DNA from: an uncultured Bacteroidota bacterium
Lineage (GTDB): Bacteria > Bacteroidota > Bacteroidia > Flavobacteriales > Flavobacteriaceae
Length of the DNA: 64,000 nt
Direction: 5' to 3'
NCBI GenBank assembly: GCA_902618245.1
Contig: CACMZR010000001.1
Coordinates: 62,001 to 126,000 of the forward strand
The notes below the pieces were generated by a model. That model saw nothing but the letters and a program-made list of their open reading frames with translations. It had not been told where the DNA came from and did not search any database. Of this stretch, positions 4,261 through 63,581 are shown in pieces (position 1 is the first letter of the stretch; every line of letters starts with the position of its first letter). Position numbers and translations under genes: made by a program.

Positions 4261-5256
4261 TTAATTTGTGTTAGTTTTTAGGTATTCATCACGGATCATT
4301 TTAGCAGTCATATAATCCTTTTGATGACTCCATCCTGGAGGATAAAAAATGTAACGCAGCTTATTGAGAATACCCGGTGCGGTAGTGACATCTTTTACTA
4401 GATGGATTATTTCACCAAAATAGACTTGAATAAAACTACCCGAATTAATTTGACGAGTGATACCATAATCAATTTCCATATTAATATTTTCTTCTTGATA
4501 AGTACCAAAAATTCGATCCCATATGTTTAAAAGGTTGCAATAATTAGTATCAAGATACAATGGGTTTCTTGCATGGTGAACCCTGTGATGAGATGGAGTT
4601 AGAATAATTTTATTTAGAAAACCAAAACGAGCATCTTTTACAAGATTCTCACCCACGTGGATAAAAGCACCATAAGTTCCATCAATAAACATAATTGTAA
4701 AAAGCATCACGGGATTCACTCCCATTAAGATACATATTGAGGTTCTAATAAAATCTGCATAAGGTGCTTCTAAGAAAAAATGTGCATGCGAGACACTCAA
4801 ATTCATTTCTTCAGGACTATGGTGTGTAGCATGTAGACACCAAAATAGTCTTACTTTATGGGCTAAGAAGTGATATATAAAATGAGCAAATTCCCAAACG
4901 ATATAGCTATATATAAACCAATACCAAGTAATAGAGGTTTCTAAAATTGAATAAGGCTGAAGAAAACCAATGCAAAAGGCTACCATACCGATAGCAATGA
5001 ATCTTCCTATTATCCTATTAAATAGATAAATCAAAAAAATAACCTTATAAACTTTTGTTTGCGGTTTTTTATATGCAAAACCCAAAAAAAGTTCTAGAAA
5101 AATTAATAGTGGTACAATTGGTAATATAAGTGCAACTATTCCATCGTAAGTCAAAAACGTAGAATAATCTTGATCTTTTAAAATATCGAGGAATCGAGTT
5201 ATTCCGAAAAAACCAACAATTTCATTCCAAATTGATTTTATGATAGACATTGTCAT
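4261..5256 (-). CDS. Sterol desaturase / fatty acid hydroxylase superfamily membrane protein
   Basis: An integral membrane di-iron enzyme of 331 residues. It carries the histidine clusters of the superfamily: H125xxxH129, H142xxHH146, H200 and HHRVHH 223-228, followed by the conserved tail NLLNIWDRIFGTY. Four or five hydrophobic segments surround them. Such enzymes hydroxylate or desaturate lipids; the substrate cannot be told from sequence. The frame extends upstream to a TTG at 5271, but the ATG at 5256 (or at 5250) is the better start. A palindromic site lies 82 bp upstream, shared with the divergent RND efflux operon. Confidence 0.8.
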   Translation of the reverse strand: MTMSIIKSIWNEIVGFFGITRFLDILKDQDYSTFLTYDGIVALILPIVPLLIFLELFLGFAYKKPQTKVYKVIFLIYLFNRIIGRFIAIGMVAFCIGFLQPYSILETSITWYWFIYSYIVWEFAHFIYHFLAHKVRLFWCLHATHHSPEEMNLSVSHAHFFLEAPYADFIRTSICILMGVNPVMLFTIMFIDGTYGAFIHVGENLVKDARFGFLNKIILTPSHHRVHHARNPLYLDTNYCNLLNIWDRIFGTYQEENINMEIDYGITRQINSGSFIQVYFGEIIHLVKDVTTAPGILNKLRYIFYPPGWSHQKDYMTAKMIRDEYLKTNTN

Positions 5257-5337
5257 ATAATTTTTTACCAAAATAAAATTAATAAAACTCTGATTAAAAT
5301 TTCTTTTAAATAAAAGTTGAAATTTATTATCACTAAC

Positions 5338-5360
5338 ATAACCTAATTATGATAGGTTAT
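5338..5360. promoter_or_regulatory. Inverted repeat, candidate operator between hydroxylase gene and RND efflux operon
   Basis: ATAACCTA (5338-5345) and TAGGTTAT (5353-5360) form a perfect 8-bp inverted repeat with a 7-base spacer, a geometry usual for dimeric repressor sites. It lies in the 239-bp divergent intergenic region, 136 bp before the efflux adaptor gene. No regulator gene is adjacent; the nearest is the HxlR gene at 11982-12425 at the far end of the efflux operon. Binding is inferred. Confidence 0.45.
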
Positions 5361-5495
5361 TTCAAAATTTAATTATAGTTTCGCAAAAAATTTGTTAAAC
5401 AAATACTTCTAAAATTTATATATATAATAGTAGAAAGTTAAAATGTTTAATTTTTTTAACAATATTAGAAGATTTACAATACAATAATTAAACTT

Positions 5496-6638
5496 ATGTC
5501 TAACAGTACCTCTTTAAAAAATACTAGAAAATGGATACTATTTATCTTAGGATTTATTGTTATTGGATTATCTTTTCAACTCACAAAAAAAATTATCGAT
5601 AGTAATCCCCCCACCAGAAAAAAAGCTAGTAATGCAATCAAAGACGCTTACACAACAAAAGTTAAAAATGGATCTTATCAAGTTCAAATTCCATCAGATG
5701 GTGTTTTAAGAGCGTATAAAAGAATTCAAATCACCGCCCGTGTACAAGGTATTCTAAAGACAATTAAGCCCTTATTTAAATCAGGTCAAGATTACAAATC
5801 TGGGCAAAATTTAGCAGTAATAGAATCCTCAGAGTATAGGGCAAACGTAATTGCTCAACGTGCAGCTTTATATAATTTAATTACATCAGTACTTCCAGAT
5901 CTTGAACTAGATTTTCCTGAAGCCTATTTAAAATGGAACTCATATTTAAAAAGATTTAATCTTGAAAAACCAGTACCCCCATTACCTGTAATGGAAGATA
6001 AAGTAAGGCTATTTGTATCTGGAAGGGGAATAATTTCATCATATTATTCCTTACAGAACTTAGAGAAAACTCTTACTTTTTATAGAATAAAAGCACCATT
6101 TAATGGAGTTTTAGTTCAGGCTAATATTACAGAAGGTTCATTAATAAGACCAGGACAAGTATTAGGGGAATTCATTGCACCTGGTGATTACGAGTTAATG
6201 GTTGCCTTACCAAAATCGTATATATCTAATATTTCAAAAGGGGCTGAAGTCAAAGTAAAATCAATAGACACAAATCAAATATTTACTGGGAAAGTTTCTC
6301 GAATTAATGCAAAAGTAAATAGCCAAACCCAATCAATAGAGGTTTACATTCGAATAAAAGATAAAAATCTTAAGGAAGGAATGTATATGGAAGCACAAAT
6401 TAAAGCCATGGAATTTAATAATGTTTTTGCATTGGACAGAGGTCTTGTAAATGGGGAAAAAGAATTATTTGCGGTTAGAAATAATAAACTTATTTCACTT
6501 AAAATAAACCCTATTCATTATACAGAAACCTCAGCTATAGTAAAAGGGTTAGTTGATGGTGAAGAAATTATATCTCAACCTATAATTGGGGCGTACAATG
6601 GTATGGAAATTAACCCCGTTAATCAAGAACTGAATTAA
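5496..6638 (+). CDS. RND efflux periplasmic adaptor (membrane fusion protein)
   Basis: 380 residues with one N-terminal membrane anchor (residues about 13-30). It then shows the barrel-sandwich/lipoyl and hairpin arrangement of HlyD/AcrA-type adaptors: a first lipoyl half near RVQGILKTIKPLFKSGQ, a helical hairpin, and a second half near YRIKAPFNGVLVQANITEG, followed by beta-barrel strands (VKSIDTNQIFTGKV). It should bridge the inner membrane pump encoded next to the TolC-like channel encoded after that. It is the first gene of the operon, and the pump starts 9 bases after its stop. The exported substrate is unknown. Confidence 0.88.
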   Translation: MSNSTSLKNTRKWILFILGFIVIGLSFQLTKKIIDSNPPTRKKASNAIKDAYTTKVKNGSYQVQIPSDGVLRAYKRIQITARVQGILKTIKPLFKSGQDYKSGQNLAVIESSEYRANVIAQRAALYNLITSVLPDLELDFPEAYLKWNSYLKRFNLEKPVPPLPVMEDKVRLFVSGRGIISSYYSLQNLEKTLTFYRIKAPFNGVLVQANITEGSLIRPGQVLGEFIAPGDYELMVALPKSYISNISKGAEVKVKSIDTNQIFTGKVSRINAKVNSQTQSIEVYIRIKDKNLKEGMYMEAQIKAMEFNNVFALDRGLVNGEKELFAVRNNKLISLKINPIHYTETSAIVKGLVDGEEIISQPIIGAYNGMEINPVNQELN

Positions 6639-6647
6639 TTAGGGATA

Positions 6648-9600
6648 GTGAAAAAAATTATTAATTATTTTATTCGTTACCATGTAGCAGTAAATGTACT
6701 GATAATAGCTTTTTTATTGTTTGGGGTGTTAGGTTTAAGATCACTTAAGTCGTCATTTTTCCCGCTTACAGAATCACACATTATTCGAATAGCAGCAGTT
6801 TATCCTGGTGCTTCTCCTATGGAGATTGAAGAGGGAGTAATATTAAAAATTGAGGACAATCTGAAGGGATTAAACGGCGTTGAACGTATCACTTCTGTTT
6901 CAAGCGAAAACAGCGGCAATATTACTGTAGAAATAGAGGAGGAACTAGATATAAATTTCATGCTACTTGAAGTGAAAAATGCGGTAGACAGAGTACCAAA
7001 CTATCCTTCAGGCATGGAGCCCTTGGTAGTATATAAACAAGAACCAACAAGATCAACAATCAATTTTGCATTGACGGCAAAAAATAAAACTCTCCTTGAA
7101 CTTAAACAAATTGGGCGTCAAATTGAGAATGAGCTTAGAGCTATACCAGGAATTTCTCAAATCAGTGTCTCTGGATATCCAGATGAAGAAATTGAAATTG
7201 CAGTTGATAGAAATAAGCTTTTAGCTTATGACTTAAGTTTTAATGATGTCGCACAAGCTGTAGCAAAATCAAATATAATTGTTACCGGTGGAAGGGTAAA
7301 AACGAATGCAGAAGAATTTTTAATTAGGGCTAACAATAAATTTTACTATGGTAATGAACTCTCCAAAATAGAAGTTAAATCTCAACCTGACGGCACAAAA
7401 ATATATTTAGATGACCTCGCAGTTATTAAAGATAGATTTTCAGAAACACCAAATAGAAGTTTTTTAAGTAATGATATACTTGTTAAGATTTCGGTTAGTT
7501 CTACAAATTCAGAAGATGTAATTTCTTCAGCAGCAAATGTCAGAAACTACATAGAAAATTTTAACAATCAAAATGACAACTCTAGACTTGAGGTTCTTAA
7601 TGATGCCTCAGAAATACTCAATTTTAGAAATAAAATTTTGATTGAAAATATTTTTCAGGGTATGATTTTGGTTTTAATTTTCCTTTCACTTTTTTTGAAC
7701 TCTAGACTTGCTTTTTGGGTCGCATTCGGACTTCCAGTTTCATTTTTGGGGATGTTTATTTTTGCTCCATTAGTTGGTGTAACTATAAATTTACTATCCA
7801 CATTTGGTATGATAATCGTAATAGGAATTCTGGTCGATGATGGAATTGTTATTGCTGAAAATATTTACCAGCAATATGAAAAAGGGAAAACTCCCTACAG
7901 AGCAGCAATTGACGGAGTACTTGAAGTCATACCTCCTGTGGTATCTGCGATTATCACAACTATGATGGCTTTCTCCCTTTTTTTATTCTTAGATGGTCGT
8001 ATTGGTGAATTTTTTAGCGAGCTATCAGTTGTAGTCATGTTAACCCTTTTAATTTCCCTAATTGAAGCACTTGTAATTCTTCCAGCACATTTAGCCCACT
8101 CTAAGGCACTAATAAAAATTGAGGAAAAACCTAAAACTTTAATTTCCAAAGCATTCAAAAAACTTAGAGATTTTAATAAAATAGGGGATAGGCTTATGAA
8201 ATTTATGAGAGATAGATTCTATTTACCTTTTCTCAGATTTTCCTTAAACAACCGTTTTCTTGTTATATCAATGTTTATAGCATTTTTTTCATTGACAGCT
8301 GGATCATTTGGTGGAGGTATAATCAGAACTTCTTTTTTTCCACCCATAGCCTCAGACAGAATTTCAATTAATCTTGTCATGCCTAATGGTACAAATGAAA
8401 AAATAACAGACTCTATAATAACTATTATTGATGAAGCTTCCAAAACTGTAGATAAAGAATTCACAGAAAAATATCTTAAGAGAACTGGAAAGAATCTTTT
8501 TGTAAATTCTATAAAAACTCTAGGAAATGGATCTTCGCGTGCTAACCTTATCATCAATCTTTTACCAGGAGAGGAGAGACCTGATGAAATAAGAGCAAGT
8601 ATGGTTTCATCAAGAATCTCGGAAGTTGTTGGTCCTTTGATAGGGGTGGAAAGCGTAATTTATGGATCTGGTTCAAACTTTGGGGGTAAGCCAATTTCAG
8701 TTTCTTTACTATCAAATAATATTAATGAATTAAAAAGTGCTAAAGTTGAGTTAAAGAAAGCTCTGACCTCTAATGCTTTGCTTAAAGATGTTGAGGACAA
8801 TGATCCAGCTGGAATTAAAGAAATTAAACTTAAACTAAAAGAAAATGCATATTCTTTAGGATTGGATTTAAGCTATTTAATGAGTAGAGTTAGGGCTGGA
8901 TTTTTTGGAGTTCAAGCTCAAAGGTTTCAAAGAGGTCAAGACGAGATTAGAGTTTGGGTTCGATATAAAAAAGAAGATAGATCATCAATTACTCAATTAG
9001 AGGACATGAAAATTGATTTACCAAATCAGGATTTTATTGCACTTAAAGAAGTAGCAACTTATTCGATAGAAAGGGGTGATGTATCAATAAATCATCTTGA
9101 TGGAAGAAGAGAAATTCAAGTATCAGCTGATCTCAAAAATTCTGAAGAATCATCTCCTACTGACATAATGAATGATATAAGATTTAATATAATGCCAAAA
9201 ATCCAGGCTAAATATCCAACAGTTAGTGCATCTTATGAAGGGCAAAATAGAGAGGCGTTTAAGTTAATTAATTCTCTTTCATCTGCAGGAATTCCAATAC
9301 TAATTCTTATATATATAACAATAGCTTTTACTTTTAGAAGCTTTTCTCAACCAATACTATTATTCTTATTAATGCCTGTCAGTTTAATTGGAGTTGCCTG
9401 GGGACATTGGGCGCATGGCTTTCCAGTTAACATTCTTTCTTTACAAGGAGTTATTGCTCTAATTGGTATAATGGTGAATGATGGACTTGTTCTTATAGGT
9501 AAATTCAATAATAACTTGAAGCAAAACTTTAGTTTTAATGATGGACTTATTGATGCTGGAAAATCAAGATTTAGAGCTATTTTTTTAACTACTGCTACTA

Positions 9601-50296: not shown

Positions 50297-50370
50297 TCCT
50301 CCTTAGCTCAGTTGGTTAGAGCATCTGACTGTTAATCAGAGGGTCCTTGGTTCGAGCCCAAGAGGGGGAG
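50297..50370 (+). tRNA. tRNA-Asn (anticodon GTT)
   Basis: 74 bases fold as a complete cloverleaf: acceptor TCCTCCT with AGGGGGA, a D-arm TAGCTCAGTTGGTTAGAGCA, anticodon stem-loop CTGACTGTTAATCAG with GTT, and a T-arm CTTGG-TTCGAGC-CCAAG. CCA is not encoded, as is common in Bacteroidota. Accessory DNA begins directly downstream, so the 3' end of this gene is a probable attachment site. Confidence 0.95.
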
Positions 50371-50412
50371 CAAGCTTAGCCGCTACACTACACACGACAT
50401 AACAAGCAATCA

Positions 50413-53076: not shown

Positions 53077-54471
53077 TTAAAATTCTAATTTTTCAGAAGT
53101 TTTATCAAAACTGCTACCACCTACCACCACCTGGAGATTATAGTATGAACCATCTTTTTTTACAATCTTTTCATATCCCTTCTTGATTAGCTCTTTAGCA
53201 AAAGAGGAAAGAGACAATCTTTGCTCTTGATGCCTATTACAGAATGCTACATAACAAGTGTGAATTTCTGAAACCTTTGTAGCTCCATTAGGAAATCCTG
53301 TTTCATGTACTTCATCAATAAATTGCTGAACTACATCATTCTCATATTTATACTGGTTAAGAGTTTCATCTAACTCTTTATAGTAAACGAATCTTTTATC
53401 TTTAAGCAATACCGTCAGAGCAGTTAAAACTCTATTGAAAATCCCATCTAACTCATTACCAATAATTTTAAAATGAAGCTCAGGGTCAATTTTTTTTGGC
53501 TTTTTATCGAACTTTAATATTAGTAGTCGTCTTACAAAGCTTTGGCTTTCATCCTTAATATCCGGAAGAGAATTCATATTAAACATTAGCTTGGCATAAT
53601 TAGTAACAATTCTTACATCTGAGTATAGTTTTTTTCCTAAAACTGGCTCTCCTGATACTAGGGTTTTGAACATTGTTGGGTCTAGAGTCTTTTCATTTTC
53701 AGAACAGTAATTCAAAAGCTTCCCTTCGATAAGTATTATCGTATTGAGGTCTTTGGTTAGTTTACCAATTGATACACTAGAGGTGTTTTCTTTACCCAAT
53801 AGTTCAGTTATTACTTCCTGGACTACGCTCTTACCATTTCCACCATCACCATATAAAAAAAGAGCCTTCTCTAACTTTAGATGATTTGTAAAAGCGTATC
53901 CAATATATTGATGTAGAAGGAGCTGATGTGTCTCATCAGGGAGCATTTCATCCAAGAAACTATTCCATCTCGGGCATGATGCATTTTCATCATAGTCATA
54001 GTTTAGCTTATAGGTAAGATAATCCTCGATATTATGCTCGCGCTGGGTAAAACCCTTTTTGTCAAATTCAAGAGTACCGCTCATGCAATTCAAAAGAATT
54101 CTATCATCATCTGCCTCAGGAATAATTCTTAATTCATCTCTAAATGTATCTTTGAGTGCTTTGTAAAAACTGCTAGTATGAAAATTAATCTTATTGGCAT
54201 AAATCTTTTTACAGCAATCCCTTAAAAATATTTCAATTGATTCATCCTTAATTTCATTCCAATAATCATTTGAGTATTTATAAAAACGATTGTAGAAAAA
54301 AGCCATTTCAATATTATACTCTTTAAATGACTTTCTAATTTCATTTACTGCATATGCTAGTGCTTTATCCTTTGTGTTTAATTGAACCAATCCATCTGAA
54401 TTGAACTGCTCAATTTTTTCAATAACCTCATGCCATTTTTTAAAGGTTATACCATCATTAATGTTTCTCAT
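53077..54471 (-). CDS. Phage/plasmid-type SF3 (D5/P4) helicase-primase protein
   Basis: 464 residues. A D5_N-like region precedes an SF3 helicase core with Walker A GDGGNGKS (208-215), the acidic B motif near IEGKLLNYCSENE, motif C/sensor FNMNSLP (300) and an arginine-finger region FVRRLL. A C-terminal winged-helix segment follows. Such proteins unwind DNA at the origin of phages, plasmids and integrated elements. It forms a unit with the primase gene downstream (6-base gap). Confidence 0.85.
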   Translation of the reverse strand: MRNINDGITFKKWHEVIEKIEQFNSDGLVQLNTKDKALAYAVNEIRKSFKEYNIEMAFFYNRFYKYSNDYWNEIKDESIEIFLRDCCKKIYANKINFHTSSFYKALKDTFRDELRIIPEADDDRILLNCMSGTLEFDKKGFTQREHNIEDYLTYKLNYDYDENASCPRWNSFLDEMLPDETHQLLLHQYIGYAFTNHLKLEKALFLYGDGGNGKSVVQEVITELLGKENTSSVSIGKLTKDLNTIILIEGKLLNYCSENEKTLDPTMFKTLVSGEPVLGKKLYSDVRIVTNYAKLMFNMNSLPDIKDESQSFVRRLLILKFDKKPKKIDPELHFKIIGNELDGIFNRVLTALTVLLKDKRFVYYKELDETLNQYKYENDVVQQFIDEVHETGFPNGATKVSEIHTCYVAFCNRHQEQRLSLSSFAKELIKKGYEKIVKKDGSYYNLQVVVGGSSFDKTSEKLEF

Positions 54472-56783: not shown

Positions 56784-57791
56784 GTGAGTCAAGTTGTTTT
56801 TAGTAAAGAAAATGGAGAATCATATCATGCAGATTCACTCGATTTAATCCAATCTGAAGAGTTTAAAAAAAAGTATAAAGGAAAAATAAATCTCATTTTT
56901 ACATCTCCACCATTTGATTTAATCCATCACAAAAAATATGGAAATAAAAAAGGTGATGACTATATAAAATGGCTAACTCAGTTTTCAGAGCCATTATCTG
57001 ACTTACTTTCTGAGGATGGGAGTATTGTAATTGAACTTGGAAATTCATGGGAAAAAGGGACTCCTACGGTTTCAACTGTTCCCATGGAAGCTTTACTTGA
57101 GTTTAAAAACAAATCTAACTTATATCTATGTCAAGAATTTATTTGTCATAACCCAGCAAGACTTCCAAATCCTGCTCAATGGGTGACAGTAAATAGAATA
57201 AGAGTTAAAGACACGTTCACAAGGGTCTGGTGGTTATCAAAAACACCTTATCCCAAATCAGACAATTCACAAGTACTTGTTAAATACAGCAATAGTATGA
57301 GGAATAAAATGAAGAGGGGTGATATTAATGCTGGAAGAAGACCATCTGGGCATTATATAACAGATAATTTTCTAAAAAACAATGAAGGGAGTATCTCTCC
57401 AAATTTCTTAAATCTTTTTAATGGAGAATTTATGTTTGAGGATATGGAGAATTCTTTAGCAATTTCAAATTCTTCTATTCAACCTATTTATAATAAATTT
57501 TGTCAGGATAATGAATTGCAAAGGCATCCTGCAAGAATGCAAATTGGACTAACAGAATACTTTATTAGGTTTTTAACCCACGAGAATGATATTGTATTTG
57601 ACCCATTTAGTGGGAGTAATACAACGGGCATGGTTGCAGAGGTTTTAAAAAGAAGATGGGTTAGTTGCGAGAAAAACCTAGACTATATAAAAGGCTCATT
57701 AATTAGATTTTTTGATGAAGATAAATCAGTCAATATCATTAAGAGAATGGCAGAAAACAGCCTTCCAGAATTGGAAAGAAAATCAGTATAA
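56784..57791 (+). CDS. DNA (N4-cytosine) methyltransferase, PvuII-like
   Basis: 335 residues with the beta-class order: catalytic motif TSPPF (40-44) first, AdoMet motif DPFSGSNTTG (273-282) later. Several stretches closely resemble M.PvuII: KKYGN, ARLPNPAQWV, RIRVKDTFTRVWWLSKT, RRPSGH, EGSISPN and HPARMQIGLTEYFIRFLT. TSPPF favours N4-methylation of cytosine. The target site cannot be inferred. GTG start at 56784. It is the first gene of a four-gene operon, and its 3' end overlaps the helicase gene by 77 bases. No PvuII-type small endonuclease gene is adjacent. Confidence 0.88.
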   Translation: MSQVVFSKENGESYHADSLDLIQSEEFKKKYKGKINLIFTSPPFDLIHHKKYGNKKGDDYIKWLTQFSEPLSDLLSEDGSIVIELGNSWEKGTPTVSTVPMEALLEFKNKSNLYLCQEFICHNPARLPNPAQWVTVNRIRVKDTFTRVWWLSKTPYPKSDNSQVLVKYSNSMRNKMKRGDINAGRRPSGHYITDNFLKNNEGSISPNFLNLFNGEFMFEDMENSLAISNSSIQPIYNKFCQDNELQRHPARMQIGLTEYFIRFLTHENDIVFDPFSGSNTTGMVAEVLKRRWVSCEKNLDYIKGSLIRFFDEDKSVNIIKRMAENSLPELERKSV

Positions 57792-58905
57792 CGGAATATT
57801 TTCTGTTGTCACTGGAGGAGGTAAAACAATTTTTGGAATTTACTGTTTAGCATACTTATTTGAAAATGATTTAATTGATTCATCAATTATTATTGTTCCA
57901 ACAAAAACTCTTCAAGACCAATGGGCTTCAAATTTATCCATTCACACAAACTCTTCAATCAAGGAGATAAGTTTCAATTACAAGAAGCTTAATAAGATAA
58001 ACATAATTATTAACCTTTCTGCTCAAAAAATCCCATTTGAAAAATTAAATAACAGATACTCAATTATATTAGATGAGTGCCATAGATATGGAACTGAAAA
58101 GAATTTGAGTTTTTTAAAAAATAAGTTTGAAAGCAAAATAGGGCTAACAGCTACTTTAGAAAGAAAATATGATGATGGTGTAGAGCAAATATTAATTCCC
58201 AATATTGGAAAAAAAATTTATGATTATGATATAAAAAAGGCACTGAAAGATGGTGTAGTCGAAAATTACAAAATGGTTTATTTAAAAACCTTTTTTAATG
58301 ATAAGGAGGAAGAAGAATATGAAAATCTATCAAAAAAGATTGCTAAATTATCTGGAATGCATTACAGTGGTGTTAAAAACAAAAACAATATTGATTCAGA
58401 TAAATATTTGAAATTGCTTTTGTTCAAAAGAAGTAGGTTAGTAAATAATTCTAATCAGAGAAAGTATATTGCAACAAAACTTATATTAAATAATCTTAGA
58501 AGAAAAAAAATTATATTTTGTGAAAGCATAAAACAGGCTGAAGAAATCAAAGAAGAATGCAAAAAAAATAATTTAGACACTGTTGTTTATCATTCTAAAA
58601 TGAGTCAGAGTGATAGAGTGTCCGTCTTAAATAGTTTTCAGTCTAATTACTATCATACTCTTATTGGTTGTAAAGCATTAGATGAAGGTTTTGACGTTCC
58701 AGATATTGATTTTGCAATTATTGTATCTCAAACAAATACTAGTAGGCAAAGAATTCAACGATTAGGGAGAACAATTAGAAAATCTAAAGGGAAAGAAAAA
58801 CCTATTATTTATACTTTATATACAACAGAAGATGAATTTTCTGATTTATATGAAGAACAATTCAGTAACTCACACATAGAAGTAAAATGGGCCGAGGTGA
58901 AATAG
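57715..58905 (+). CDS. SF2 DExH-type DNA helicase/translocase
   Basis: 396 residues with the ATG at 57715 (a TTG three bases earlier is also in frame). Motifs: LREWQKTAFQNW (Q-motif-like), TGGGKT Walker A (33-38), DECH (120-123), TATLE (145-149), and QRIQRLGRTIR motif VI (345-355). It resembles the helicase subunits of type III/XPB-like restriction systems but lacks their long extensions. The start region overlaps the methyltransferase gene by 77 bases in another frame, yet contains conserved helicase residues, so the overlap is real. It probably translocates on DNA to power the adjacent nuclease-like protein. Confidence 0.85.
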   Translation: MKINQSISLREWQKTAFQNWKENQYNGIFSVVTGGGKTIFGIYCLAYLFENDLIDSSIIIVPTKTLQDQWASNLSIHTNSSIKEISFNYKKLNKINIIINLSAQKIPFEKLNNRYSIILDECHRYGTEKNLSFLKNKFESKIGLTATLERKYDDGVEQILIPNIGKKIYDYDIKKALKDGVVENYKMVYLKTFFNDKEEEEYENLSKKIAKLSGMHYSGVKNKNNIDSDKYLKLLLFKRSRLVNNSNQRKYIATKLILNNLRRKKIIFCESIKQAEEIKEECKKNNLDTVVYHSKMSQSDRVSVLNSFQSNYYHTLIGCKALDEGFDVPDIDFAIIVSQTNTSRQRIQRLGRTIRKSKGKEKPIIYTLYTTEDEFSDLYEEQFSNSHIEVKWAEVK

Positions 58906-59648
58906 CAGGGTTATCATTCGATTTTTCAAATGAAACCGAATTTGAAGACATCATAGTTAAAAAACAAATTCTTAAAGAATACTTTGTTTATGACGCAAAA
59001 AAGACATTGAATATATTCCGAAAATATAATAGATATGCTGATGTCCTTCTTATTGAAAAAAACTACAGATATTGGAGTATTGGTGAAGTTGAAATTTCAA
59101 AACACTCATTTAAAAATCATGTTTTTCCTCAACTAATCGAAATATATTCTCTTATGGAGAAAAATATAGAATTAATAAGAAAAAATTATATGAACATAGA
59201 GGGTCTAGAAAAGACAAAACAAATTCAAGACTTAATTATGTACAACAAACCTTTTCTGAATCTAATTATTGACAAGCTTCCAAATAATTATAATAATATT
59301 CTGCCACTACTAAAATCATTTTGTAATGTTAATTTTGTCCAAAGACTTAGAGATACAGATGAAAATTACATGTATTTAACTGATAATGAATTTACAAAGT
59401 CTATTTCTGAATCATTTTCATATAGTTATGTTAACGAAGTAGTTTTAATTATTGACAACCCTAACTTACTCCAGCTTAATAAATTAGTTGAAGAATTTTT
59501 AATTTATAAAGAAGAAAAAATTTATATTAAGAAACGATTTGAAAAAATAAAAGGTACTGATAGACTATTTTGGATTATGGAAAAACAAATTCCAAATGGA
59601 AAATATAAACTAGTAAAAGAGAATAAAATTTTAAAATTACATAGATAA
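58887..59648 (+). CDS. Protein with possible PD-(D/E)XK nuclease core
   Basis: 253 residues, family not recognised. Residues 52-72 read D52-VLLIEKNYRYWSIGEVEISK, in which D52 and E67-V-E69 have the spacing of a PD-(D/E)XK active site (D...ExE/K), followed by a helix containing HVFPQLIEIY. The remainder is helical and Asn/Lys-rich. The first 19 bases overlap the helicase gene, and its TAA shares a base with the next ATG. The nuclease call is an inference from this one motif and the operon context. Confidence 0.5.
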   Translation: MGRGEIAGLSFDFSNETEFEDIIVKKQILKEYFVYDAKKTLNIFRKYNRYADVLLIEKNYRYWSIGEVEISKHSFKNHVFPQLIEIYSLMEKNIELIRKNYMNIEGLEKTKQIQDLIMYNKPFLNLIIDKLPNNYNNILPLLKSFCNVNFVQRLRDTDENYMYLTDNEFTKSISESFSYSYVNEVVLIIDNPNLLQLNKLVEEFLIYKEEKIYIKKRFEKIKGTDRLFWIMEKQIPNGKYKLVKENKILKLHR

Positions 59649-61171
59649 TGATACCATCAATTAATAAAATAGAGATAGGAAGTTCAACTCTAAAAAGATA
59701 CGCAGACATTGATTATGACGAATGGTACGCTATGGCAGAATATGTAGATAACTCTCTCCATAGTTATATGAATAATAAATCTGCTTTAAATAGAATAGGT
59801 ATTAAACATTGTGATGTAAAACTTTCAATCCTAGACAATGGAGATGGTGAGGAGATAAATATTTTAGATAATGCAGGAGGAATTCATACTGATGAATTTG
59901 AAAGGTTACTTTCAATGGGTCTATCAAAAGAAAAAAGCGATACCCAACTGAGTGAATTTGGAATGGGAATGAAGACGGCCACCATATGGTTTGGTAATTA
60001 TATTGAAATTGAAACCAAACATTATTTAGAAGATAAATGCTATAAAATCACCATTGACGTAAATAAAGTAGATACTGAAGATTATGTAAAAATTACTGAG
60101 GTAAATCCAAGTTCTAATTTAAAATCATTTACGAAGATTAAAATATCAAAACTTAATAGGAGGCTCAAAAGAAAGAAAAATAAAATAAAAGAATCACTTG
60201 CAAGCATTTATAGAAAATATATTGAGTCTGGTGATATAATTATAACCTTTGAAGATGATATCTTAAAACCAATAAACATTGAATTAGGAAAAGATGCAGA
60301 GGGCAAACTATTTAAAAAAGAATTTGAAATTAAATTAAAAAATGGTAAAAAATGTAAAGGCTGGATAGGCATTATGCTAAAAGGTAAAACAATAATGTCA
60401 GGATTTTCAGTATACAGAAACTCAAGATTAGTCCAAGGTTATCCAGAAAACTCATGGAGACCAAAAGAAGTTTTTGGTCAAGAGGGTGGAAGTAATACAA
60501 TTAAAAACCAGAAATTAATTGGCGAACTCGATATGTCTGATTTCGATGTTGCTCACACCAAAAACAAAATTAATTTCAAAGACGATGATGAAGGTGAATT
60601 CAGAAACAAACTGGGAGAAGTGTGTTCTGACATTGCAGCCGAAGCAAACAGAGTGAGTAAGCCTAAAACACCAAAAGAACATGAGGAGAGTATCAATGTA
60701 ATTATAGGAAAACAAAAAATAGAAGAATATTTTAAGGAACCAGAAAATATTGATGTTTCAACAATTGAATATGTTTCAACTACAGTTAAATTAAATACAT
60801 CAAAAAAAGTAAAAGAAATTTATGAAAATGAAGAACCCCATCTTGATTTTTCAGACATGAAAAACGTAGAGGGAATTAATAAAGCAGTACTTGTATATCA
60901 TTTCATGGATAGGAGTCTTCCATACATGATTTTAAACGAAATTGATGATAAATTGATTGTATGTATTAATGTAAAACATCCTTATTATGAGAATATTGCC
61001 GAAAATGGTAAAGCCGATAATGAGGTCATTTTTAAAATGAATTGCATTTTTGATGCATTAGCAGAGCAACATAACAAAAATATGTACGGGGACGACCTCT
61101 CACCAGAAGATATGAGACTTACAAAAGATGTATTTCTTAAGAAGTGGATAACTCATTTGGTAGAATCTTAA
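59648..61171 (+). CDS. MORC/HSP90-like GHKL ATPase
   Basis: 507 residues. The N-terminal GHKL ATPase has the N-box EYVDNS (E31, D34, N35), motif G1 DNAGGI (74-79) and G2 GMGMKTA (105-111). It is followed by an S5-type transducer region with FSVYRNSRLVQGYPENSW, as in MORC and HSP90-like bacterial ATPases. The C-terminal 150 residues are unassigned. GHKL/MORC-type ATPases are known from restriction-modification neighbourhoods, where they are thought to act as ATP-dependent clamps on DNA. It completes the four-gene operon. Confidence 0.82.
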   Translation: MIPSINKIEIGSSTLKRYADIDYDEWYAMAEYVDNSLHSYMNNKSALNRIGIKHCDVKLSILDNGDGEEINILDNAGGIHTDEFERLLSMGLSKEKSDTQLSEFGMGMKTATIWFGNYIEIETKHYLEDKCYKITIDVNKVDTEDYVKITEVNPSSNLKSFTKIKISKLNRRLKRKKNKIKESLASIYRKYIESGDIIITFEDDILKPINIELGKDAEGKLFKKEFEIKLKNGKKCKGWIGIMLKGKTIMSGFSVYRNSRLVQGYPENSWRPKEVFGQEGGSNTIKNQKLIGELDMSDFDVAHTKNKINFKDDDEGEFRNKLGEVCSDIAAEANRVSKPKTPKEHEESINVIIGKQKIEEYFKEPENIDVSTIEYVSTTVKLNTSKKVKEIYENEEPHLDFSDMKNVEGINKAVLVYHFMDRSLPYMILNEIDDKLIVCINVKHPYYENIAENGKADNEVIFKMNCIFDALAEQHNKNMYGDDLSPEDMRLTKDVFLKKWITHLVES

Positions 61172-62106
61172 TATATTCTATTTATATGCTGCCTTACATT
61201 TAATTTGAGGGCCAAAAAATTTGATAAATTCATATCTTTTGAACACACGCTATAACAAACTGCATCTGAAATTATGTCAATTAGTCTAGTTCTATCAGCA
61301 TTTATGAAAGTCTCATTTGAAATCATAACCTTTAAACTTTTTTCTGTTCCAGGACTAAATCCAATATCAAATTCATATCCGTTTGAAATTTGTCCATTTA
61401 TAACAATTAGATAAATTGCAAAATTAGTTTCATAATGTATTGTTTTTATCAGCTTACTTTTTTCGCTATCGAGCCAATCAATTTCTGAAATAATATCAGT
61501 ATCTAATTCTACTAAAACATTTTTTATTCTCTCAACCTCGACATGCTTTTTGTACTCTTTCTTAAGAATTTTTTGAATTTCTTCTTCACTTTGATTTTCT
61601 TTTACATAATAATCTTTGATTACCTTGTCTAAATCAATTCCATCAGTATATTTTCTGGAGATTTCTTGTTCAATTATGTATTGTTGGGTTTTATCAATTT
61701 TATTCTCTCGACAAAAATCATCAAGTTCTTTTCTTTCTTTATTTGTAATTATTAAATCTTCCCACGCTTTAACACATAAGTCTTTAAATTCAGAAATTAT
61801 TTCATCTCTATGGTTTTCATTGTACTCTAGTCCGACAGTTATTTTTTGGTTAATTACAAATCTATTAATTGCAGTATTTCCTTTTAAAAAATGATGAAGC
61901 TCGTGTTTGATTAATTCATTATATATTTTATTGTAATCGAAAACTAAACTTAATATTCCATTTATAATTCTAGATTCAATCTTGTCAATTTCAGTTTTAA
62001 GTTTTATGATTTCTTTTGAATGCTTGACACGTTCCATTGGTGAATATTTTTTAAAATATTCTGAATGCTTGCGTTTTGTAGATTTATATTCTTCTACTAA
62101 TTTCAT
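61168..62106 (-). CDS. Hypothetical protein, helical, Glu/Lys-rich
   Basis: 312 residues, no family recognised. The N-terminal half is coiled-coil-like (KRKHSEYFKKYSPMERVKHSKEI is one such stretch, seen in part). The middle has a segment ITNKERKELDDFCRENKID with the look of a helical calcium-less EF/TerB-like motif, and the C-terminus is alpha/beta. It converges on the GHKL ATPase gene with a 4-base overlap. It may be an accessory or unrelated passenger. Confidence 0.5.
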   Translation of the reverse strand: MKLVEEYKSTKRKHSEYFKKYSPMERVKHSKEIIKLKTEIDKIESRIINGILSLVFDYNKIYNELIKHELHHFLKGNTAINRFVINQKITVGLEYNENHRDEIISEFKDLCVKAWEDLIITNKERKELDDFCRENKIDKTQQYIIEQEISRKYTDGIDLDKVIKDYYVKENQSEEEIQKILKKEYKKHVEVERIKNVLVELDTDIISEIDWLDSEKSKLIKTIHYETNFAIYLIVINGQISNGYEFDIGFSPGTEKSLKVMISNETFINADRTRLIDIISDAVCYSVCSKDMNLSNFLALKLNVRQHINRIY

Positions 62107-62659: not shown

Positions 62660-62866
62660 ATGAAATCTATAGAATTATTTGACGAATACTGTAAGCTAAA
62701 CCCAGGTTTTTGTAATGATTACGGAACGTTGATGTTTACAGTTGGTGAGGAGGAAATGTGTAAGGTGCTTGAGAAATGCATCAATGATAAATTAAGGTTC
62801 CAAATTTGTTATCCGCCAGATAGTGATGATGATGGATTTGTTAAGTACATCAAGAATAAGGAATAG
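62660..62866 (+). CDS. Small hypothetical acidic protein
   Basis: 68 residues with four Cys spread over the length and an acidic stretch DSDDDGF near the end. Not recognised. It follows the 145-residue gene closely and overlaps the opposing nuclease gene by 17 bases. Confidence 0.45.
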   Translation: MKSIELFDEYCKLNPGFCNDYGTLMFTVGEEEMCKVLEKCINDKLRFQICYPPDSDDDGFVKYIKNKE

Positions 62867-63581
62867 TTTTTAATTGATATTTACAATAATCACAATTTTC
62901 AGTGTGTTTAGGAACACTTTCTTGTTTTAATAAATCAATCAAATCCGATAAGGTTTTTTCTATCCAAGAATCATCGCCTGTATAATCCAGCAAGCTAATT
63001 TCAAAGTCTAGTTTTTCATCAAATCTTTCTTTATTTTTCATTCCATTACAGTAAACGAAATATCCAATATTTGATACTTTAAAACCATTATTTCTCAATA
63101 AATATTGATAAAATTCCATCTGCCTTTTATATCCTATTTGCCAATCTGCATCAAGATTAATTTCACTATTTTTTGATGTCGATTTATAATCAACAACAAT
63201 AAGTTCATTGGAATCAAGATTAATCCAAATATCATCAACAGCTCCAAAAAGATGAAGTTTTAATTTTTCATGTTGGTAAACTACACCGCTAAAATTATTT
63301 CTCCATTTGTCTAAATTTTCGTGTTGAAATGGTATTGCATTTAAACCTAGTCTTTTAATGTATGGATGAGGCTCTTTAATATTTCTGTAATAATCAAATT
63401 CATTTTTTAAAAGATTATCTACAGCTGAATTAAGATTAAAAGGAAAGCCAGGTGGTTGTCCAACTCCAAGTCTCCTGTCAAGGTAAAAGCATCTTGGACA
63501 ATTGAGAAAATAATCAACTTTTGAACGACTTAATTGATAAAAGTCACTTTTATCTGGTATGTATTTTCCTCTATATGACAT
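62850..63581 (-). CDS. Cas4/RecB-like PD-(D/E)XK nuclease with four cysteines
   Basis: 243 residues with the RecB-type nuclease core: FGAVDDIW (D116/D117), VVDYKST (D131, K133) and the QMEFYQYLL motif (Q154-Y158). A CPRC pair (C28, C31) near the N-terminus and CDYC (C230, C233) at the C-terminus could hold a zinc ion or an iron-sulfur cluster, a variation on the one-plus-three Cys arrangement of Cas4 and AddB. It may be a DNA exonuclease in repair or defence. No CRISPR array is present. Confidence 0.75.
   Translation of the reverse strand: MSYRGKYIPDKSDFYQLSRSKVDYFLNCPRCFYLDRRLGVGQPPGFPFNLNSAVDNLLKNEFDYYRNIKEPHPYIKRLGLNAIPFQHENLDKWRNNFSGVVYQHEKLKLHLFGAVDDIWINLDSNELIVVDYKSTSKNSEINLDADWQIGYKRQMEFYQYLLRNNGFKVSNIGYFVYCNGMKNKERFDEKLDFEISLLDYTGDDSWIEKTLSDLIDLLKQESVPKHTENCDYCKYQLKTIPYS

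Follow-up and report, generated by a model that had tools for sequence, protein, structure and literature searches.

Operons that combine a prokaryotic MORC-family GHKL ATPase with a Rad25-like helicase were predicted in 2008 to encode restriction-modification systems, as type 1 of the MORC operons (Iyer, Abhiman and Aravind 2008, PMC2292703; here and below, cited papers are drawn on for the available parts of their texts). We analyzed a window of 64,000 nucleotides from an uncultured Flavobacteriaceae bacterium (GenBank assembly GCA_902618245.1, contig CACMZR010000001.1, positions 62,001 to 126,000), in which four co-directional genes at 56784-61171 on the + strand overlap head to tail. They encode a PvuII-like DNA methyltransferase, a stand-alone superfamily 2 (SF2) helicase, a predicted nuclease that we call G3 and a MORC-family ATPase. 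Judging from sequence, predicted structure and analogy, the operon probably specifies a mobile, ATP-dependent restriction-modification system. It shares with the type 1 operons the signature-bearing MORC protein, the Rad25/XPB-like SF2 helicase beside it, a methylase, a predicted nuclease and lateral mobility. Whereas the helicases of the 2008 text are commonly, not obligatorily, fused to a nuclease of the restriction-endonuclease or HKD fold, the helicase here is unfused and the nuclease is encoded separately; the methylase is PvuII-like, and Pfam, NCBIfam, PHROGs and PADLOC offer no credible match to G3. The available 2008 text does not contain the separate ExE nuclease family, the pairing with a PvuII-like methylase, the rearranged gene order or the co-divergence pattern described below. 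Because MORC/Rad25-helicase operons were predicted at that time, the general kind has been known since 2008, and the window set is, by its sequence, a variant rather than a new kind. The initial annotation had pointed to GHKL/MORC ATPases described in some restriction-modification neighborhoods, which the 2008 text bears out, and had placed this gene set under no named defense system. The latter holds in that PADLOC names neither the third nor the fourth gene (the 2023 release, PADLOC 2.0, covers the methylase class and PbeA with models and offers none for these two), but the general kind had already been predicted. Among the matches listed in the open-licence PubMed Central (PMC) literature, no experimental study dealt with a PvuII-like methylase together with MORC, an SF2 helicase and a nuclease, and in the same searches we found no prokaryotic MORC system linked to a methylase that had been put to an experimental test.

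Other described systems share parts of this set. The dcm-MORC-Z1-PD-(D/E)XK operons, which fit type 3 of 2008 (PMC2292703), have the same MORC signature (47/47), a methylase, a helicase-like ATPase and a nuclease. They differ in that a Z1 protein takes the place of the PbeA-like helicase and a PD-(D/E)XK motif protein that of G3, the methylase is of the C5 type and the MORC proteins form a separate branch. MzaB-type ATPases are weakly similar. CglI and NgoAVII (PMC4267653, PMC5737866) likewise have a methylase, a nuclease and an SF2 ATPase as separate proteins, but the nuclease is PLD-type with a B3 domain, the ATPase carries a Z1-like domain, the methylase is a 5-methylcytosine enzyme and no MORC subunit is described in the available texts; Pfam matched neither a PLD nuclease nor a Z1 domain in the operon proteins. 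The PbeABCD and CxC ABC-ATPase systems (PMC6459918, PMC10853773) have the helicase half of PbeA in common with our locus. By contrast, the N-terminal PLD/HKD nuclease of PbeA is missing here, the match starting at profile position 248, and the linkage is with a methylase rather than with phosphorothioation genes. None of the ten window proteins scanned around the operon matched the families of the PbeC ABC/AAA ATPase, the DndE-like PbeD or the dnd genes. A phosphorothioation (Pbe) reading was rejected, since the helicase half alone matches. The type II PvuII system resembles the locus in its methylase (41% identity over 291 positions), but the locus has four genes and two ATPases. The ten window proteins scanned with Pfam gave no match to a PvuII endonuclease family, the small, ATP-independent enzyme that acts alone in systems of that kind, and a simple PvuII system was rejected because four genes are linked.

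The initial annotation had claimed a four-gene operon with overlaps of 77, 19 and 1 bases, and all four open reading frames (ORFs) were found at its positions on the + strand. The methylase gene (56784-57791, +) starts with GTG and encodes 335 amino acids, with motif IV preceding motif I. The helicase gene (+) runs to 58905 from an ATG at 57715 or from a TTG at 57712, the latter giving 397 amino acids. G3 (58887-59648, +) encodes 253 amino acids. The MORC gene (59648-61171, +) encodes 507, comprising GHKL and S5 domains followed by a C-terminal domain of about 160 residues. The methylase and helicase genes overlap by 80 bases, or 77 if the ATG is used, and the next two overlaps are 19 bases and 1 base. 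Upstream, 123 bp separate the operon from a divergent TPR gene. A scan for the -33/-7 pattern, which we take to be the Bacteroidota promoter pattern, gave four matches against 5.9 expected, none of them upstream of the operon. At the other end, an ORF of unknown kind encoding 312 amino acids (61168-62106, -) is convergent with the MORC gene and overlaps its end by 4 bases.

A scripted scan recovered the methylase, helicase and MORC motifs listed in the initial annotation. The methylase matched Pfam N6_N4_Mtase (E = 5.9e-32) and PADLOC MTase_II (E = 4e-79). As the annotation had proposed, it strongly resembles M.PvuII, by far its best solved relative (structure 1boo, E = 3.8e-63), with 119 of 291 aligned positions identical (41%); TSPPF lies at amino acid 40 and DPFSGSNTTG at amino acid 273. 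Because its central region is conserved throughout the family and with M.PvuII, a PvuII-like target site may tentatively be guessed at. The helicase is a two-domain SF2 protein (ResIII, E = 8.5e-18; Helicase_C, E = 4.1e-19) with TGGGKT at 34, DECH at 121, LTAT at 145 and QRIQRLGR at 346, numbered from the TTG. Its best PDB matches were archaeal RAD25/XPB chains (6p66 and 2fwr, about 2e-35), and its best defense model was PADLOC PbeA (E = 5.3e-76); the nuclease half of PbeA is absent, because the match covers only positions 248-635 of the 672-position profile. Against TIGR04095 (dnd_restrict_1) it scored far under the cut-off (188 of 600 bits). All 16 helicases found across the window and the related loci described below were 383-408 amino acids long, matched PbeA models and contained the four motifs, and none of the 2074 ORFs of 83 loci joined two of the four proteins.

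For the third protein, the only Pfam match of the window sequence was below threshold (Sulfotransfer_3, E = 0.047). We therefore relied on an alignment of 36 sequences, comprising the window protein, 34 proteins from MORC loci and one longer relative. D52, E67, E69, H78 and Q82 were invariant, and E16, E20, W63 and G167 nearly so; an HxxxQ motif was present in 35 of 35 sequences scanned. An AlphaFold2 model built from this alignment (predicted local distance difference test score [pLDDT] 78.3) suggested a helix (16-26), three strands (32-36, 53-57 and 63-69) and a second helix (75-88), with D52 before the second strand, E67-x-E69 at the end of the third and Q82 within the following helix. A helix-strand-strand-strand-helix layout with acidic residues at such positions is that of PD-(D/E)XK nucleases. 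Seven of the first ten Foldseek rows from the PDB were chains of MunI, a Pyrococcus repair endonuclease, FokI, BsoBI and BamHI, none of them significant. Because the invariant residues and the modeled layout fit, G3 is predicted to be a PD-(D/E)XK nuclease of an ExE variant, and the nuclease-like core of D52 and E67-x-E69 that had been noted in the single sequence is retained over all 36. Single members of the alignment matched SduA_C (best E = 0.0054), DUF5655 (E = 4.9e-5) or SH3_10, two matched NAD_binding_6 and one matched PADLOC PDC-S18. A profile search of 395 genomes of the phylum gave 13 G3 matches. The three strongest (E < 1e-40, window included) adjoin a MORC gene; the ten weaker ones are longer (291-342 amino acids), with no MORC match within the annotated stretch, two of these stretches ending at or near a contig end. 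Therefore, kinship of the nuclease domain reaches beyond the four-gene system. These longer relatives (L021, 8682-9686, and L123-L131) represent a wider family of predicted nucleases, and some lie beside restriction-like genes.

The MORC protein matched HATPase_c_3 (E = 7.9e-17) and has the N, G1 and G2 motifs as EYVDN at 31, DNAGGI at 74 and GMGMK at 105. The defining feature of prokaryotic MORC proteins is the signature GhXhhpXXRhl, located in their S5 domain (Iyer, Abhiman and Aravind 2008, PMC2292703), and the window protein has GFSVYRNSRLV at amino acids 252-262. The signature occurred in 78 of 83 locus proteins, as opposed to 0.43% of shuffled proteins, and the N-box in 37 of 37. An AlphaFold model (pLDDT 79.7) matched MORC3 (5ix2_B, E = 2.7e-14, TM-score 0.58 over the target, root-mean-square deviation 5.0), MORC2 and SMCHD1. 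It also matched Hsp90-type TRAP1 with similar or better E-values, but with a root-mean-square deviation of 17. Signature and fold thus agree with the MORC-like GHKL ATPase that the initial annotation had seen in this gene. In the C-terminal 160 residues, N441 and P445 are nearly invariant and H444 and E473 invariant. A Shedu type I-D or paraMORC3 assignment, which calls for a DUF4263 nuclease at the C terminus of the GHKL protein, was rejected, as there was no DUF4263 match and the MORC protein matched only two HATPase families at E = 0.1.

We then asked how the gene set is conserved. Four MORC sequences used to scan GTDB genomes yielded 137 stretches and 95 relatives, of which 80 loci were kept, and the genes around them were identified with phmmer and a set of 20 reference proteins; all locus counts depend on the MORC query, on patterns taken from four sequences and on the limit of 80 loci. 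The co-occurrence across genomes that had been set as a check beforehand was found in 13 of the 80 loci, in distant bacteria. Nine have the window order, methylase-helicase-G3-MORC, and four, forming one clade (Shimodaira-Hasegawa-like approximate likelihood-ratio test [SH-aLRT] support 100), have methylase-MORC-helicase-G3. In one further locus (L061), a dcm methylase in two ORFs replaces the PvuII-like enzyme upstream of helicase-G3-MORC. The other loci contained methylase-G3-MORC (8/80), a GHKL-like protein of 750-756 amino acids with another methylase (MT2), G3 and MORC (9/80), G3-MORC alone (1/80), a MORC gene at a contig end (1/80), or a Z1-type neighbor or a MORC protein closer to the Z1-type reference (47/80). 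The 14 helicase-bearing loci belong to five phyla: Pseudomonadota, Chloroflexota, Bacteroidota, Acidobacteriota and Actinomycetota. Culturable carriers of the operon include Chitinophaga polysaccharea (L053) and Nitrospirillum amazonense (L033), and Mucilaginibacter sp. E4BP6 (L056) naturally has a set that lacks the helicase. In the window and the 13 four-gene loci, gaps between neighbors, counted from the first possible start codon, ranged from -161 to +25 nt with one exception of 1038 nt in L032, where an MTaX1-HNH protein (4972-5964; MTaX1, E = 2.7e-30) lies between methylase and helicase. Because the four genes are kept through reordering and the methylase is replaced by dcm in L061, the pattern argues for function rather than accident. 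A methylase was present in the gene block of 33 of 36 G3-type or truncated rows (23 PvuII-like, nine MT2 and one dcm), the remainder being L015, L042 and L030, the last cut by a contig end.

Side observations in this set, which reaches 83 loci once the window, L015 and L022 (a phage-like contig) are included, concern individual neighborhoods. L022 (6250-9530) is an IMG/VR contig with a helicase-free methylase-G3-MORC set and, by ORF reading only, terminase-like and portal-like genes. Single-sequence searches with the window G3 or MORC found no relative in IMG/VR, such searches having missed the family. The window G3 alone also found no match in plasmids or phages, and the window MORC found three MORC-like matches in plasmids, two in dcm-Z1 operons and one unclear. 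In L042, an AAA ATPase gene (5335-7125; AAA_21, E = 2.1e-24), perhaps OLD-like, stands upstream of G3-MORC where methylase and helicase would stand. In L016 (6332-8587) and eight similar loci, a 751-amino-acid protein without a Pfam match at 0.001 lies upstream of MT2-G3-MORC. The 2008 text mentions MORC operons that lack a helicase and encode a methylase and a second protein of the GHKL type (PMC2292703); the nine loci may be of that sort, and the 751-amino-acid-class protein could be the paraMORC1 partner named there.

The genes of the system do not diverge equally. In 14 four-gene loci, the correlations between protein distances were 0.93 for helicase-G3, 0.92 for helicase-MORC and 0.92 for G3-MORC (0 of 5000 permutations each); for the methylase, they were 0.59 with helicase, 0.53 with G3 and 0.49 with MORC (0, 0 and 3 of 5000 permutations, respectively). 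After thinning to nine loci, the former values were 0.87, 0.87 and 0.85 (1, 2 and 0 of 5000) and the latter 0.51, 0.27 and 0.32 (65, 683 and 528 of 5000), respectively. Such correlations partly reflect shared descent of the whole operon, and the contrast with the methylase is their informative part. Because distance correlations are high among the three attack proteins and lower with the methylase, helicase, G3 and MORC move as a block, with methylases exchanged more often. On the question whether the C-terminal half of G3 might be a domain for target recognition that tracks the methylase, the partial correlation was 0.03 in the 14 four-gene loci and 0.30 in 22. A quick MORC tree of 48 rows (36 G3-linked or truncated plus every fourth of the 47 Z1-type), with SH-aLRT support only, separated the G3-linked from the Z1-linked branch (support 100) and required a single change between presence and absence of the helicase. 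The 19 helicase-less rows, ten plain and nine with the 751-amino-acid-class GHKL-like protein, formed one group (support 94). No helicase of this type was found on either strand of these rows, which span 5.1-17.5 kb each, the shortest (L048, L037 and L049) being ones that might hide it beyond their ends. Given the Z1 outgroup, loss of the helicase is the shorter story than gain. Because G3 and MORC persist in the 19-row group, in which no helicase was detected, these two are likely the core of the system. Across evolution, the helicase is dispensable, G3 and MORC are the constant pair, and the methylase is exchangeable.

In the restriction-modification system that we consider probable, the PvuII-like methylase would methylate a short motif in host DNA, likely at N4 of cytosine, as a self mark. 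Unmarked DNA, such as that of phages, would be attacked and cut by G3 under the control of MORC. The latter would form an ATP-gated dimer to clamp or loop DNA and would activate the nuclease in the way MutL activates MutH, and the SF2 helicase would translocate along DNA, its directional movement carrying or connecting complexes. That MORC might loop the DNA lying between a recognition site and a cleavage site has already been proposed (Iyer et al. 2008, PMC2292703), and MORC2 reportedly acts as a DNA clamp and compacts DNA (PMC12216690). In CglI, an SF2 ATPase, a nuclease and a methylase from separate genes form one ATP-dependent restriction system (PMC4267653), in which nuclease and ATPase act together and translocation has been proposed (PMC4267653, PMC5737866). 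The initial annotation had assigned self-marking to a type II-like methylase and cutting to a helicase, nuclease and clamp module. Restriction-modification remains the best reading, but the helicase is not essential to the architecture, none having been detected in the 19-row group, and the methylase is loosely attached (r about 0.5 versus about 0.9).

Several observations weigh against this reading. The 13 four-gene loci were fetched by the MORC protein itself; L015 has helicase-G3-MORC with no directly adjacent methylase (1.7 kb downstream, the opposite strand carries a different one), and no methylase was found in L042. The methylase-G3 and methylase-MORC correlations were not significant in the thinned set, and in the tree the terminal branch of the window MORC is very long (2.68) and the placement of this row unsure. 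The MORC signature was present in 12 of 16 helicase-linked loci, compared with 10/11 other, 9/9 with the 751-amino-acid-class partner and 47/47 Z1-type. Motif scans were also incomplete for MORC G1 and G2 (35/37 each), for D-ExE of G3 (34/35) and for the methylases (motif IV in 20/23 and motif I in 21/23, some misses being shortened ORFs). G3 of the window has no credible family in the four catalogues, its model had no Foldseek match below 0.001 in PDB or BFVD, and a Glu replaces the Lys of D...(E)xK.

This last substitution, together with the missing fold match, would suit a catalytically dead G3 that serves as a recognition subunit, with restriction achieved by MORC-driven DNA compaction or silencing and no cutting. 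We regard this as quite improbable: D52, E67 and E69 are invariantly acidic over 36 sequences, a constraint that binding alone need not impose, and an ExE-type site is also present in BamHI, which is active as a nuclease. In favor of the dead-subunit reading, PbeABCD reportedly blocks a virus without cleaving its DNA (PMC6459918), but a later analysis argues that it does cleave (PMC10853773). Somewhat less improbable, yet still unlikely, is that helicase, G3 and MORC are an independent defense unit that senses, for example, DNA ends or replication intermediates and has repeatedly recruited a methylase as neighbor. The co-divergence of the trio (0.92-0.93) relative to the methylase (0.49-0.59), the non-significant thinned correlations and loci L015 and L042 are in its favor. 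By contrast, the methylase shares the gene block in the 33 of 36 rows noted above and, in most four-gene loci, overlaps the gene that follows or almost reaches it, and because its replacements are other DNA methylases (dcm in L061, MT2), methylation appears to be the shared need. The helicases also resemble those of methyl-directed enzymes, and the mREase_IV model matches 2 of the 16, as might be expected if the complex attacked phage-modified DNA in a type IV-like manner with the methylase in a side role. With no known reader domain matched by Pfam in the four window proteins and a methylase nearly always co-encoded, we give such modification-dependent restriction very little credence.

The operon is cargo of a 15.3-kb integrative element at a tRNA-Asn gene, the last 1.7 kb of which lies beyond the window end. 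The element is bounded by a direct repeat of 69 bp, exact in both copies: an attL-like copy at 50304-50372 (+) in the tRNA-Asn gene (50297-50371) and a second one, outside the window, at 65591-65659 in window numbering. The far end has a tyrosine integrase (Phage_integrase, E = 9.6e-12) just inside it, and close to the first repeat copy are P4-type primase genes, among them a P4-family primase/helicase gene (53077-54471, -; TIGR01613, E = 1.5e-51) that belongs to the carrying element and stands outside the four-gene machine. A Cas4/RecB-like PDDEXK nuclease (62850-63581, -; PDDEXK_1, E = 6.1e-15) is encoded on the same element. No MORC match at 1e-5 was found in 36 other genomes of the same genus that were searched. 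In genome G028, DNA about 0.1 kb past the tRNA matches the far flank from its position 752 on, and in genome G010 the match to the far flank lies about 1.4 kb past the tRNA. Both look like sites without the element, the match comprising the tRNA and the far side only, with about 0.7 kb of the far flank lacking a counterpart.

The compact, naturally minimized set of G3, MORC and methylase, with or without the helicase, makes the role of MORC testable, and it contains a predicted nuclease family hardly named by the catalogues searched. In animals and plants, the chromatin-compacting MORC proteins keep transposons silent, and an origin of the family in bacterial restriction systems was proposed in 2008 (PMC2292703). 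It is possible, rather than probable, that the system represents a restriction class with MORC and a new family of ExE nucleases as its core effector, in which MORC would trap, compact or loop unmarked DNA and thereby license cutting, with the helicase as an optional booster. If so, this core would stand outside restriction types I-IV and would be a direct bacterial precursor of the MORC-based silencing of foreign DNA in eukaryotes.

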